Shown here: positions 224 through 5,781 of the stretch, piece after piece
Layout of the letters: each line of letters starts with the position of its first letter
How positions within the stretch are numbered: the stretch's first letter is position 1
Origin: Sphingosinicella sp. LHD-64
Lineage (GTDB): Bacteria > Pseudomonadota > Alphaproteobacteria > Sphingomonadales > Sphingomonadaceae
NCBI RefSeq assembly: GCF_031157375.1
Contig: NZ_JAVIFV010000001.1
Span: forward strand, 806,001 to 870,000
DNA length: 64,000 nt
Reading direction: 5' to 3'
The notes under the pieces: model-generated
Database searches by the model: none
Told to the model about the DNA's origin: nothing
The model's input: only the letters and a program-made list of their open reading frames with translations
Position numbers and translations under genes: made by a program

Positions 224-1162
224 TCAGGCGGCCGGCTGATACGCGCCTTCGATCCAGCCGCGCCCCGCTTCGAGCCGGCCGACTTCGCGCTGCGCCATGC
301 CGGCGACCAGCAGGCTGCCGCTGTCCGCCGCGTCTTCGAACAGAGCGATCCGCGCGTCGAGCGTCGCTGCCGCCCCGGCACGGGCGTGCAGCGCGCACCA
401 GCGCACCCGGTCGCTCGGATGGCTGCGCGCGAACTCGGCCAGCAGATCCGTCCCTTCCTCGCCGCCATAATGTGCAGCGAGCGCCAGCATCGGCTCGAGT
501 GACGTACGCGTCATGATCCGCTCGATCGTGCCGTCCCGGACATTGAAGCCGTACTGGTCGCGGAAGATCGCGGCGTGCGCGGTCTCGAGAATGTTGATCG
601 AGACCGACATCTCGTCGGCCGGAAGCTGGTCGTGCACGTCGCGATGGGCGCGGTAGAGCATCACCTTGCCGGGATCGAGCTTTGACCGCTCGATGAACCT
701 CAGGTCCACCTTCTCGCCCGGAATGCCGACGACTTTCTCATAATCATATTCGTAATAGTCGCTCCAATAGCCCGGCCCCAGATAGCCGACGGTCAGGAAC
801 GAGAAATTGTGGTCGTGCGGCTTGTGGTAGAAAAAGGGGTCGGTGCCGCTGTGGCGGACCATGCTGTCGTTGAGTGCCGGCCAGAAATTGGCGCGGATGA
901 CGAAGCGTTGCGCGCTCGCATGGAGCAGCACCACCTGGGCGGTATAGTGATTGTCGCGGACCTGGCCGAGGCAGCGCTGCTTCAGTTCGGCGATCATGAG
1001 GTCGGCGAGGAAGCGGCGGTTGTTGGCGAGCTTCTTCAGCTCATGCCCCCAGGCGCAGAACCCGTCCTCGTCCCGGGGATCGAAAGGGCCCGTCTCGAGC
1101 CGCTCGACCAGCTCGCCGAGCTCGCAGCTCTCCTCCGTCGGGCAATCGATCACGCGCGGCAC
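224..1162 (-). CDS. cupin-like beta-domain plus helical-repeat protein, putative peptide-modifying enzyme
   Basis: 312 residues, GTG start at 1162 behind a strong AGGAGGG site. It overlaps the end of the upstream gene by 13 nt, so translation is probably coupled. The middle has a beta-rich segment with clustered histidines: HKPHDHNF near residue 113, then YRAHRDVHDQL near residue 170. This suggests a metal-binding double-stranded beta-helix, as in cupins or Fe(II)/2-oxoglutarate enzymes. The C-terminal ~110 residues are Ala/Leu-rich helices resembling HEAT repeats. Architecture parallels the upstream 332-residue protein, so the two may be distant paralogues acting as a pair on the 44-residue peptide. 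I do not recognise a named family; enzyme activity is inferred only from the His cluster and context. Confidence 0.6.
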   Translation of the reverse strand: MPRVIDCPTEESCELGELVERLETGPFDPRDEDGFCAWGHELKKLANNRRFLADLMIAELKQRCLGQVRDNHYTAQVVLLHASAQRFVIRANFWPALNDSMVRHSGTDPFFYHKPHDHNFSFLTVGYLGPGYWSDYYEYDYEKVVGIPGEKVDLRFIERSKLDPGKVMLYRAHRDVHDQLPADEMSVSINILETAHAAIFRDQYGFNVRDGTIERIMTRTSLEPMLALAAHYGGEEGTDLLAEFARSHPSDRVRWCALHARAGAAATLDARIALFEDAADSGSLLVAGMAQREVGRLEAGRGWIEGAYQPAA

Positions 1163-2148
1163 AGCAGACCCTCCTGATCGGCGGTCGCCTCCGGAAAGAA
1201 CAGGTCGAGCGTCTGGCCGGCCGCCGCGCGGACCTCCGGGTGCGGATCGCGTGCCGCCAGTCGCCGGAGCGCGGGAAGCGCGGCGTTGGCATCCATCGCG
1301 AGCATCTCGCGCATGATGTGCCAGCGGGTGTAGAACTGGGGCATTGCGCCCAGCAGCTCCTCGAAGAGCGGGAACGCATCCTGACGCTCCATCGTGCGCA
1401 GCAGCGACACCATGAGCTGGATGCGCGAGCTCGCCTCGTCGGTGCTGCTCGTCCCGATGAGCGCGAGCGTCCGGCTGTCATATTCGGCGGCGAGCGGCGC
1501 GGCGCCGGTGCGCACCAGCGCCTGGAAATAGACCATGTCGCTGGTGGCGTGCTCGATGACGAAGCTCTGGCGGCGGCCGTCGATCACGATCTCCTCGCCA
1601 TCCTCGATCCGCCGGCGGCCGACGAGGCGGGCCGTGCCGGCCTCGGACGCGACGAAATTCTCGCCGATCCGTGGCGCCTCCCAGAAGGAGAGCGTGGCGC
1701 CGCCCGCCTTCACGTAGCGAAACAGGGTGACGAGGCCCGAAAAGCCGATCGACGTCGCCCCGCGCGGGCCGGCCTTCTTGGCGGCGAGCATCTCGACGCC
1801 GGTCACGCCCATTGCAAGCGACAGATCGTCATTGTGGAACAGGAGGAGACCGGTGTGGATCTCGCTCGTCGCCGGCTGGAAGGGCGGACGAAAGAAGCCG
1901 TCGGCGCGGCTGGAGGCGATGAGGTCGCGCACCAGCGCCGAAAGATCGTCGCCGCGATCCAGGAAGCGGCGGGCGGCCGCGAGCACCGCCTCGGGCGTGC
2001 GCGCCGGCAATGCGGCGAGCGCGCGATCGATGTCGGTCATCAGCGGATGCCCGCTCCATCGGCGGGCGCAGGCCTCGACACGCCGGTGCGATTCATCCTG
2101 CGCCGAACGATCGGCCAGCCAGCCGCGCAACGCCGGGCCGGGGATCAT
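1150..2148 (-). CDS. beta-domain plus HEAT-like repeat protein, partner of the cupin-like protein
   Basis: 332 residues. The ATG at 2148 is preceded by AAGGGACGAGG. An internal ATG at about 2040 is also possible but has no good ribosome site. The reading frame stays open far upstream, but that extension would run through the peptide gene and hairpin and is rejected. Residues about 95-235 look beta-rich with few metal ligands (SEIHTG, FVIEHA). The C-terminal third has helical pairs, with a clear HEAT-like unit near DPHPEVRAAAGQTL. It lacks the dense His cluster of the downstream protein, so it may be a regulatory or peptide-binding partner rather than the catalyst. It is encoded after the small peptide gene and an intervening hairpin. 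Function unknown. Confidence 0.6.
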   Translation of the reverse strand: MIPGPALRGWLADRSAQDESHRRVEACARRWSGHPLMTDIDRALAALPARTPEAVLAAARRFLDRGDDLSALVRDLIASSRADGFFRPPFQPATSEIHTGLLLFHNDDLSLAMGVTGVEMLAAKKAGPRGATSIGFSGLVTLFRYVKAGGATLSFWEAPRIGENFVASEAGTARLVGRRRIEDGEEIVIDGRRQSFVIEHATSDMVYFQALVRTGAAPLAAEYDSRTLALIGTSSTDEASSRIQLMVSLLRTMERQDAFPLFEELLGAMPQFYTRWHIMREMLAMDANAALPALRRLAARDPHPEVRAAAGQTLDLFFPEATADQEGLLCRA

Positions 2149-2175
2149 CGCCTCGTCCCTTTTCTGCGGAAAAGC

Positions 2176-2205
2176 GGGCGGAAGCGCGGGGTGTCGCTTC
2201 CGCCC
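2176..2205 (-). terminator. attenuator or terminator hairpin between peptide gene and enzyme genes
   Basis: A perfect 11-bp stem (GGGCGGAAGCG with CGCTTCCGCCC) and 8-nt loop begins 14 nt after the stop of the 44-residue peptide gene. On the minus strand it is followed by GCTTTTCC, a weak T-tract. Partial termination here would give more precursor transcript than enzyme transcript, a common arrangement in peptide natural-product operons. Confidence 0.6.
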
Positions 2206-2219
2206 AAATAGCCCCGCGC

Positions 2220-2354
2220 TCAGAGCGCGATGAACAGGGAAATGGCGATGCCCAGGCAGATCGGACCGCCGACCTCCTGCTGCTTCACCGAACCGTGGAT
2301 CGCGACGCTGGTCTTCAGCTCCGGGATCGCGGCGAGGTCGATCTTCCTTTTCAT
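2220..2354 (-). CDS. 44-residue peptide, candidate RiPP-like precursor
   Basis: ATG at 2354 lies 7 nt after GAGGGG, a good ribosome site. The peptide has a charged N-terminal half (MKRKIDLAAIPELKTS), a QQEVGG junction at residues 25-30, and a hydrophobic tail containing one Cys (PICLGIAISLFIAL). The double glycine at 29-30 resembles a leader-peptidase site. A leader/core layout with a short hydrophobic core, followed by an attenuator hairpin and two putative modification proteins, is the evidence for a ribosomally made, modified peptide. It could alternatively be a small membrane protein, since the tail could form one short transmembrane segment. The core does not fit the lasso pattern: there is no Asp or Glu at ring-closing positions. 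Confidence 0.6.
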   Translation of the reverse strand: MKRKIDLAAIPELKTSVAIHGSVKQQEVGGPICLGIAISLFIAL

Positions 2355-3726: not shown

Positions 3727-3765
3727 CCGGATTGCCTAGTCTTGCGGCAGGCGGAGGGGGAGCTC

Positions 3766-5781
3766 GTGCCGGAAACGGGAAACGGCAGCGGCTGGACGGA
3801 GAGGCTCAGACGCAACCTGCGGCAGATCGGAGCCGTGCGCCTGCTGCTCACATTGCTGTTCCTCGTCGCCGGTATTTATCTGGCCCGCTTCGGCTGGGAG
3901 GTGCCGCTCGCCAGCGACGCCGAGCGCGCGCTGTACGACCTGCGCTTCGACCGCGAGGCGGAGCGGGTGCTGCAGCAGGACGACCGCATCGTTCTCGTCA
4001 CCTACAATGACGACACGCTCGCCGAACTCGGCAAGCGCTCGCCACTCGATCGGGCGATGCTCGCGCAGGCGCTCACGGCGATCGACGGCATGGGCCCGCG
4101 CGCGATCGGCATCGACATCCTGATCGACCAGGCCCAGCCCGAGGACGACGAACTGATCGTGGCGATGCGCAACATGCGGACGCCGACGTTCCTCGCCTTC
4201 GCCTCGGCGCGGCACAATCCCGACCAGATCCTCCCCTGGCAGGAGGAATTCCTGACCGATTTCCTGCGACAGGTCTCGTCCGGCCCGGTGCGACCCGCGA
4301 GCATAAGGCTCGAAACCGATCTCGCCGACGGCGTGATCCGCCGCTGGCCGGGCCAGCCCGACGGCCTGCCGCCGCTGCTCGCCCGGGCGATGGCACCGGG
4401 TCATCCGGCGTTCGGCCAGTATCGCGGCGCCATCGATTTCCGCGTGCCGGGTACGGCCGAGAGCGACGAGGTGCCGGTCTTCACCAACCTCCCGATCCAG
4501 TTCGTCGCCCAGTTCCCGGACGGCGTGCGCGACATGATCGCCGGGCGCTACGTGCTGATCGGCGGCGACATCCAGGACCTCGACAATTACGAGACGCCGA
4601 TGACCCGCGTCACCGGCAACTGGACCAAGGGTCTGGAGGTCCACGCCCAGATCCTCGCCCAGATGCTCGACGGGCGGATGCCGGCGCCGATCCGCCCCTG
4701 GGCCTTGTGGCTCGCCGCGATCGGCGTGGTCGCGGCCGGCGCGCTGACCAGCCTGATCGAGGCGCGCGGCTGGAAGCTCGCGCTGGCGCTGGCGGCGCAG
4801 ATCGCTTTCTTCGGCTATTTCCCTTTCTACCTCCAGCAGAGCGGCATCGACACGCTCACCCTCCCGGCCTTCGGCTGGGGCGCGGGCTGGCTGCTCGCCT
4901 TCATCGGCGTCGGCACCGCGGCGCGGGCGGTCGGCTCCGAGCAGCGCCGCTTCGCCCAGTCGGCGCTCGGCAAATACCTCCCTGCCGACGTTGCCGCGCA
5001 GATCATGCGCGATCCCAGCCGCCTCGCGCTCACCGGCGAGAAGAAGCATATCTACACCTTGTTCACCGATCTTGAGGGCTTCACCAAGCTCTCCCACGCG
5101 ATCACGCCGGAACAGCTCTCCAGCCTGCTCAACACCTATCTCGACCGGATGAGCGACGTGGTGCTGAAGCATGGCGGCACGATCGACAAGTTCGTCGGCG
5201 ATGCCGTCGTCGCCTTCTGGGGGGCACCGATCGCCCGGCCCGACGATGCCGACCGCGCCGTCCGCGCCGCGATCGAGATGTACGAGGAGGGCAATCTCTT
5301 CTCGGAAGAAGGCGGCGAGGACCTGCCGCCGATCGGCATCACCCGGGTCGGCCTCCATTATGGCGAGGCGGTGGTCGGCAATTTCGGCGGCGAGGGGCGC
5401 ATCCAGTACACGGCGCTCGGTGACGGCATGAACACCGCGGCGCGACTCGAATCGGCCAACAAGGCGCTCAAAACCACCGCTCTGATCAGCTCGGAAGCCC
5501 GAAATCAGGCCTCCATCGACGTCTTCCGGCCGATGGGCCGGATCGTGCTCAGCGGCCGCGCGACGCCGGTCGAGGTCTGGGAACCCGTTCCAAAGATGGA
5601 AGAAAATCTTCGCGCTCGGCTCGTCGCGCTCTGGCAACGGTTCGACGGCGGCGACACAGAGGCGCTCGTTCAGCTTTCTGCAATCGCAGATGAACATAAC
5701 CAGGATGCAGCACTACTCGAATTCATCTATAGGATCCGGGAAGCGGGTCCGGGAGGGCACTATGTTTTGGGGTCAAAATAA
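3766..5781 (+). CDS. CHASE2-domain class III adenylate/guanylate cyclase
   Basis: 671 residues from a GTG at 3766 preceded by GGAGGGGGAG; an upstream in-frame TTG at 3742 lacks this site. Residues 24-40 form a membrane segment, followed by a periplasmic CHASE2 sensory domain to about residue 305. Hydrophobic helices at about 311-390 follow, then a cytoplasmic cyclase domain from about 425. The catalytic domain is intact: FTDLEGFTKLS (433) supplies metal-binding Asp, IDKFVGDAVVAFWG (473) the base-recognition Lys and second Asp, and YTALGDGMNTAARLES the purine and transition-state residues. It should make cAMP or cGMP in response to an extracytoplasmic signal. It overlaps the next gene by 20 nt, so the exported protein downstream may take part in sensing. 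Confidence 0.92.
   Translation: MPETGNGSGWTERLRRNLRQIGAVRLLLTLLFLVAGIYLARFGWEVPLASDAERALYDLRFDREAERVLQQDDRIVLVTYNDDTLAELGKRSPLDRAMLAQALTAIDGMGPRAIGIDILIDQAQPEDDELIVAMRNMRTPTFLAFASARHNPDQILPWQEEFLTDFLRQVSSGPVRPASIRLETDLADGVIRRWPGQPDGLPPLLARAMAPGHPAFGQYRGAIDFRVPGTAESDEVPVFTNLPIQFVAQFPDGVRDMIAGRYVLIGGDIQDLDNYETPMTRVTGNWTKGLEVHAQILAQMLDGRMPAPIRPWALWLAAIGVVAAGALTSLIEARGWKLALALAAQIAFFGYFPFYLQQSGIDTLTLPAFGWGAGWLLAFIGVGTAARAVGSEQRRFAQSALGKYLPADVAAQIMRDPSRLALTGEKKHIYTLFTDLEGFTKLSHAITPEQLSSLLNTYLDRMSDVVLKHGGTIDKFVGDAVVAFWGAPIARPDDADRAVRAAIEMYEEGNLFSEEGGEDLPPIGITRVGLHYGEAVVGNFGGEGRIQYTALGDGMNTAARLESANKALKTTALISSEARNQASIDVFRPMGRIVLSGRATPVEVWEPVPKMEENLRARLVALWQRFDGGDTEALVQLSAIADEHNQDAALLEFIYRIREAGPGGHYVLGSK

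Follow-up and report, generated by a model that had tools for sequence, protein, structure and literature searches.

Background

The described systems closest to the locus reported here are the operons of ribosomally synthesized and post-translationally modified peptides (RiPPs), many of whose core peptides are hypervariable, and the thiol dioxygenases, in which the substrate arginine lies in a Y-x-R-N motif and a Ser-His-Tyr triad is present, both motifs being visible in the aligned members. A further comparison is offered by PbsQ and BpmG, hydroxylases of cupin- or JmjC-like type from the pathways of biphenomycin-type RiPPs (PMC12257519). The present locus lies in a stretch of 64,000 nucleotides from Sphingosinicella sp. 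LHD-64 (assembly GCF_031157375.1, contig NZ_JAVIFV010000001.1, positions 806,001 to 870,000 of the forward strand), hereafter the window, and consists of a gene for a short peptide followed by two genes that we call H and C. This peptide-H-C operon is probably a RiPP-type system of an undescribed class. Among the matches listed in the open-access PMC literature, searched by titles and abstract starts, there was no account of it; subscription journals were outside this scope.

A conserved three-gene unit

The peptide gene, H and C are all on the minus strand of the window:

2354-2220 (stop included), minus strand: precursor-like peptide, 44 aa; open reading frame (ORF) with AGGGG ahead of the ATG
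2176-2205, minus strand: perfect 11-bp hairpin with a loop of 8, followed by GCTTTTCC, between the peptide gene and H
2148-1150, minus strand: H, 332 aa; Pfam HEAT_2 at E 9e-7; AlphaFold model with pLDDT 95 and pTM 0.88
1150-1162, minus strand: overlap of the H and C genes, 13 nt
1162-224, minus strand: C, 312 aa; AlphaFold model with pLDDT 95 and pTM 0.88

A preliminary description of this DNA had pointed out the ribosome site of the small gene, a QQEVGG junction in its product, HKPHDHNF and HRDVHDQL clusters, the 13-nt gene overlap and the perfect hairpin behind the peptide gene, and all of these were found as described. The overlap suggests translational coupling of H and C. The same genome holds a second complete copy about 137 kb away, with the peptide MAKEFETIRFEVEALPELCTQVAVAGAAKQQEVGGAACLGVAAGLAIYIAA followed by H and C; the two copies share 58% identity for C and 46% for H. 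A search of the whole genome with a profile of the peptide gave exactly two matches below E 0.1, one for each copy, with the window peptide at E 2e-17.

The three genes are tightly linked in the family to which the window belongs, taken to be Sphingomonadaceae. Of 249 genomes of this family, 88 have C, 82 have the peptide and 81 have both (p = 6e-56 by Fisher's exact test, the genomes not being phylogenetically independent). The surveys of C and of the peptide are treated here as one 249-genome sample, as they agree in size and in the genomes listed. Within it, 81 of 84 peptide matches share the strand of C and precede it by no more than 2.5 kb, at distances of 116-1241 nt. H stands directly upstream of C in all of 40 loci drawn from the 95 places matched by C in these genomes, with a 13-nt overlap identical to that of the window in 19 of them and other small overlaps or gaps in the remainder. 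The same arrangement was found in all of 80 loci with organism names, which are the best 80 of 400 places from a scan that took one genome per species. The two samples share organisms, several of them the same strain, and together yield 125 contexts and 115 unique peptides.

The link to the peptide was assessed with a profile seeded with 30 peptides chosen by eye and then iterated. It gave a match ahead of H in 116 of the 125 contexts, compared with none of 125 antisense, none of 122 distant and none of 125 triplet-shuffled sequences, all run at a fixed database size. A profile built from only 6 seeds still matched 78 of 125 upstream regions and nothing in the same three controls. By both the genome survey and the profile comparison, a small precursor-like gene stands beside conserved proteins, as is typical of RiPP operons, and the co-occurrence in sphingomonads that the preliminary description had proposed to look for is borne out.

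The 80 named loci belong mostly to Sphingomonas, Sphingosinicella, Novosphingobium and the Erythrobacter group, with others in Lysobacter, Alteromonas and Tahibacter. C was detected in 5 of 385 genomes of a class sample, one of which lies outside the family, and in 15 of 398 genomes of a phylum sample, of which two do. Two of 72,556 plasmids, from Alteromonas stellipolaris and a Vibrio, carry relatives of C, the matched features being annotated as hypothetical proteins.

Eight of the nine contexts lacking a profile match have a small hydrophobic-ended ORF by eye, and the ninth, L075, is at a contig edge that truncates H. Seven genomes possess C and no match to the peptide profile (G044, G055, G068, G076, G155, G199 and G237). 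The peptide of G076 was recovered by the iterated 30-seed profile (L059, E 8e-7), and small hydrophobic-ended upstream ORFs were seen by eye in G155, G199 and G237 (L072, L073 and L056). The three peptide matches unlinked to C were considered as a case against the unit and dismissed, since each is explained. In G224 a contig break leaves H and the peptide on C20 and C at the end of C5. The operon of G162 is broken within H, and its two parts (L208 and L209) are separated by about 40 kb, pointing to an insertion or rearrangement. In G232 the locus (L206) has decayed to a readable peptide and a short H remnant, with no C found. A second decayed locus, L211 of G191, likewise keeps a readable peptide frame, with H and most of C gone.

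Decay of this kind, and the short and hydrophobic nature of the peptide, would suit a small toxin accompanied by H and C as detoxifying or antitoxin proteins. We regard this as very improbable, for the peptide frame survives in G232 after the loss of C and in G191 after the loss of H and most of C, which would hardly be tolerable if a toxin were still expressed, and a long hydrophilic motif is conserved in the peptide.

Several loci have unusual arrangements. On the minus strand of L174 (G917), a 101-aa ORF upstream of H has an end part that, read from an internal Met, starts with MKTEKSVIADLDVELSAIGG, somewhat resembling the leader motif, and lacks a hydrophobic tail; it is possibly another type of precursor. 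The Vibrio sp. ED002 plasmid (L198:5189-6745) has shorter H-like and C-like genes with a 59-aa ORF behind C, no clear peptide before H, and Tn3 transposase and restriction-modification genes as neighbours. In L098 (6134-7954) H and C run on in a single open reading frame while the end of H lies in a different one, representing a gene fusion or a frameshift, and in L149 C is spread over two frames.

Leader and tail of the peptide

The window peptide comprises a leader part with KIDLAAIPELKTSVAIHGS, the segment VKQQEVGG, and the hydrophobic tail PICLGIAISLFIAL. Sequence comparison shows that a peptide of 40-60 aa is encoded immediately ahead of H and C. Its N-terminal part conserves the motif phi-D-phi-x-x-phi-P-[ED]-L-x-T-x-V-[GA]-x-x-G-[STA], and its C-terminal region is a short hydrophobic stretch rich in I/V/L/A. 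Among the 115 unique peptides the leader has a mean pairwise identity of 0.38, the middle one of 0.16 and the tail one of 0.24, giving a contrast between leader and core that is present across the whole set and weak inside close subgroups. Both ends are under purifying selection (pN/pS of 0.33 for the leader and 0.45 for the tail in 208 pairs), and the tail changed more than the leader in 126 of the 208 pairs. Of the variable core anticipated earlier, what holds is that more peptides have the motif in common than the tail; the tail is nonetheless conserved too in close subgroups, as its 0.45 against the leader's 0.33 indicates, and the counter-case that the preliminary description had named, a conserved tail lacking leader/core contrast, is avoided only in part.

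The proposal that GG marks the leader cleavage site does not extend beyond some members. The window's own peptide has GG, and a GG at residues 19-34 occurs in just 28 of the 115 unique peptides (EVGG in 22), on which ground it was rejected as a feature of the class, and the peptides as a family do not conform to the GG-leader, C39-processed type. Two C39-peptidase proteins are encoded elsewhere in the window's genome, and no C39 domain was detected in the full-length ABC exporter of L086, the only exporter scanned for it. Cysteine occurs anywhere in the sequence in 40 of the 115 peptides; the remaining 75 lack it, which makes a thiol target unlikely in general. A scan of 30 peptides against NCBIfam produced four single-member matches at E 1, the best at 0.0047 to a glutamate synthase and one to daptide Mpa2 at 0.09, and a scan of the same number against Pfam produced one, GXGXG at E 0.03. 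We take these as chance matches, with known RiPP precursor families not matched.

Some operons encode more than one precursor. The profile identified two or three in L083, L084, L086, L092 and L103, and inspection by eye added one more in each of L086, L092 and L106, bringing the first two to three and L106 to two. L086 belongs to S. trueperi DSM 7225, whose second copy has an ABC exporter along with three small precursors. Precursors encoded together carry one N-terminal motif and have different tails; the exception is L103, where two of the three tails are alike. In L083, L084, L086, L092 and L106 the H-C pair itself is duplicated in tandem, each copy with its own precursors, and in the first four of these loci a small protein is encoded between the copies; that of L086 has a weak winged-helix/MarR match below the cut-off.

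These properties also bear on the strongest rival explanation, in which the peptide is a small subunit instead of a substrate: its motif would bind H and C, its hydrophobic tail would tether the complex to the membrane, and C would act on some other substrate. The docking-like conserved motif, purifying selection on the tail, a tail composition that is kept better than its sequence, and tail hydrophobicity (the best 12-residue window of the 115 peptides has a median Kyte-Doolittle value of 2.46 and a minimum of 1.05) are all compatible with a membrane anchor. On the same scale, a 19-residue stretch reaching 1.6 is found in only 55 of the 115 peptides, which leaves many tails short for spanning a membrane, and neither the two or three different peptides of some operons nor the ABC, HlyD or MacAB genes near others fit a simple anchor. 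On balance we consider the subunit explanation unlikely.

Structure and conserved residues of H and C

The AlphaFold models of H and C, with the mean confidence listed above, are alike in having N-terminal helices, a cupin-like beta domain and C-terminal HEAT-like repeats, in agreement with the beta-rich domain and helical repeats ascribed to each protein in the preliminary description:

H (AlphaFold): helices to ~82, cupin-like domain ~90-235, HEAT repeats ~238-317
C (AlphaFold): N-terminal helices, cupin domain ~77-216, HEAT-like helices 222-305

The two proteins are homologous sisters (profile comparison, E 6e-7). They differ in their conserved residues, which were counted for C in alignments of 66 and 39 overlapping rows. 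In C the residues R90, H116, D117, H118, R171, D175, H177, Q179, S186 and S188 are invariant in all 66 rows and N190 is kept in 65, and the three histidines H116, H118 and H177 are present in 39 of 39 and 66 of 66 rows. Five further relatives of C also keep the histidines, some with D/N or D/E changes beside them. The invariant residues of H are R242, R275 and W276 (66 rows). No conserved histidine site was found in the cupin part of H in these rows: the commonest histidine columns (35, 21 and 18 of 66 rows) are all in the repeats, and columns outside the repeats reach at most 14. Since H retains the cupin and HEAT fold without the histidine site, it most likely binds a substrate or partner and is non-catalytic. 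From the sequences, H is likely a catalytically dead sister and docking partner of C, and from model and sequences together C is likely a metal oxygenase.

The best structural matches of both proteins in Foldseek are thiol dioxygenases. For C they occupy ranks 1-3, led by the thiol dioxygenase chain 4tlf_D (E 4e-8; TM-score 0.40 by query and 0.59 by target length), with the hydroxylase/demethylase chains 1vrb, 7zcc and NO66 from rank 17 down. Alignment of C with a set of 18 CDO/MDO proteins by hhalign gave E 1.6e-4 or 1.5e-3, according to the columns chosen, as single comparisons, and placed HDH on HDH and DxH on DxH. A search of PDB sequences with the C profile reached E 1.1 at best, and Pfam, NCBIfam and PADLOC scans of H and C gave nothing convincing beyond HEAT repeats.

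Hairpin and neighbouring genes

The 74-nt stretch containing the hairpin has a folding energy of -34.4 kcal/mol compared with a shuffle mean of -28.1 (z -1.9; 9 of 200 shuffles are equally stable), and a terminator scan does not include the hairpin at 2176-2205 in its list. It is possible that in the window copy it acts as a partial terminator between the peptide and H. The idea of an attenuator hairpin as a general feature was rejected for the class, as a perfect stem of at least 8 bp within 110 nt past the peptide stop occurs in only 52 of 122 loci. Stems followed by T-rich bases are also found in L074, L076 and the Alteromonas locus L113; the same scan reported none in the close relatives L035 and L077.

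Gene maps around the 80 named loci were drawn with a home-made ORF caller. One recurring ABC family is co-directional with the operon within about 2 kb in nine loci (L083, L084, L086, L087, L092, L103, L106, L113 and L139), and ABC, HlyD and ABC-2 domains were confirmed by Pfam for representatives in L086, L113 and L139. The ABC genes of L076, L077 and L082, which are on the opposite strand and more than 2 kb away, were not counted. The operon of L197 is flanked by MacAB-like and ABC-like genes, one of them so annotated and the rest assigned by position and size, and on the Alteromonas plasmid an annotated macrolide ABC transporter ATP-binding gene is located two genes upstream of H.

Other recurring neighbours are an ECF sigma family, upstream in 11 of the 80 loci (one member confirmed by Pfam), a hydrophobic protein family without a good Pfam match, upstream in 12, and a Trans_reg_C family in 26, including L088 and L089, which follows C in 24 of the 26 and in L088 has a weak receiver-domain match. 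The Trans_reg_C neighbour suggests regulation tied to the operon. On the ORF map of the window, none of the recurring ABC, ECF sigma, hydrophobic and Trans_reg_C families was seen beside the operon. About 1.5 kb beyond C, on the opposite strand, are genes that by eye are like ABC-2 exporters, and a large ORF at 3742-5781 on the plus strand is, as we take it by eye, like a protein with a sensor domain and an adenylate/guanylate cyclase.

Recurring regulators and the hydrophobic protein family would be in keeping with an unmodified secreted pheromone or bacteriocin, with H and C serving as immunity, sensor or chaperone proteins. This explanation seems quite improbable to us: the invariant metal-type site of C would be unexpected in immunity or chaperone proteins, and PADLOC defence models found no match to H or C at E 0.1.

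Proposed function

Among these explanations a peptide-maturation operon fits best, given the tight linkage, the purifying selection, the multiple precursors with one leader motif, the metal-type site and the ABC exporters of some loci. The earlier suggestion that the two proteins modify or mature the peptide gains from the conserved three-gene unit, the selection on the peptide, the more widely shared leader motif and the invariant metal-type site in C; the GG site and the hairpin are not upheld as general rules, and the modification itself is what we infer. That the peptide is the substrate of C and H we judge to have a good measure of probability on its side. The leader motif would dock on H, on C, or on the H-C pair. 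C, as its model and invariant residues suggest, would use H116, H118 and H177 to coordinate a metal, Fe(II) or another, and oxidize the hydrophobic tail with O2, in a pocket that appears to differ from that of small-thiol dioxygenases by replacement of the substrate Arg and of the triad His and Tyr. Hydroxylation of the tail, or some other oxidation of its residues, is our guess at the reaction; that the chemistry is a metal-dependent oxidation at all strikes us as possible, at slightly less than an even chance. The product may then be trimmed and exported by the nearby ABC/HlyD or MacAB-type exporters where these exist, and otherwise by proteins encoded elsewhere; with this partial support we lean towards a secreted product.

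Several observations weigh against a RiPP-type system. The tail is constrained within subgroups and not hypervariable, and a residue common to all tails was looked for among the peptides and none was found, so that the modified residue cannot be named. No hydrophobic-tailed peptide was seen upstream in L174 and L198, and the co-encoded second small ORFs of L113 and L197 match the leader motif poorly. In 71 of the 80 named loci the operon has no member of the recurring ABC family nearby, which also favours the subunit explanation, and none was seen beside the window copy, other kinds of exporter and proteases not having been searched for. Pfam and NCBIfam scans of H and C revealed no RiPP enzyme or PqqD-type leader-binding family. 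The likeness of C to thiol dioxygenases has moderate Foldseek TM-scores, and its hhalign comparison with 6 CDO/MDO proteins was not significant (E 0.18).

These results lead us to a tentative and rather doubtful proposal, namely that a three-histidine cupin of thiol dioxygenase ancestry and its dead sister oxidize unactivated aliphatic tail residues without a thiol substrate and define a new RiPP class in about a third of sphingomonads. If true, a new route of peptide maturation would exist in about a third of the family genomes sampled (88 of 249) and here and there in Gammaproteobacteria, with both chromosomes and plasmids carrying it; the thiol dioxygenase cupin fold would be tied to peptide tailoring; and the combination of a single enzyme with its dead sister and a single precursor would provide a simple system for studying pseudoenzyme-directed modification.

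Comparison with known systems

PbsQ and BpmG offer a parallel to the role proposed for C, in that a cupin-fold protein there hydroxylates the precursor peptide of a RiPP pathway, and differ in that this hydroxylation is a single tailoring step accompanied by MNIO, rSAM and arginase enzymes (PMC12257519). In the present system C and its sister H are the only proteins that recur at every sampled locus, and the 66 members of C have no JmjC-type Pfam match at E 0.1, leaving C without a sequence match to the JmjC and 2-oxoglutarate cupin hydroxylases.

Thiol dioxygenases (cysteine and 3-mercaptopropionate dioxygenase; CDO_I, PF05995) share with C the cupin fold, and their H-D-H, D-x-H and following Ser align with those of C; by model and alignment, C appears to have a cupin with the same kind of three-histidine metal site. 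However, C has added N-terminal and HEAT-like helical parts, and CDO_I is unmatched at E 0.1 in its 66 members. The substrate Arg corresponds to A75 in C (A in 31 and P in 28 of 66), and the His and Tyr of the triad correspond to N190 (65 of 66) and L192 (M in 31 and L in 30 of 66), with only S188 retained.

In comparison with RiPP operons at large, neither H nor C has a match to a PqqD-type domain or to a known family of RiPP enzymes, the tails are constrained within subgroups, and no protease family stood out among the recurring neighbours, none having been searched for. The likeness is one of organization: a small leader-like gene lies directly upstream of two coupled genes, with several precursors or ABC exporters in some loci, and the nearest RiPP type is that of operons with a catalytic enzyme and a partner protein.

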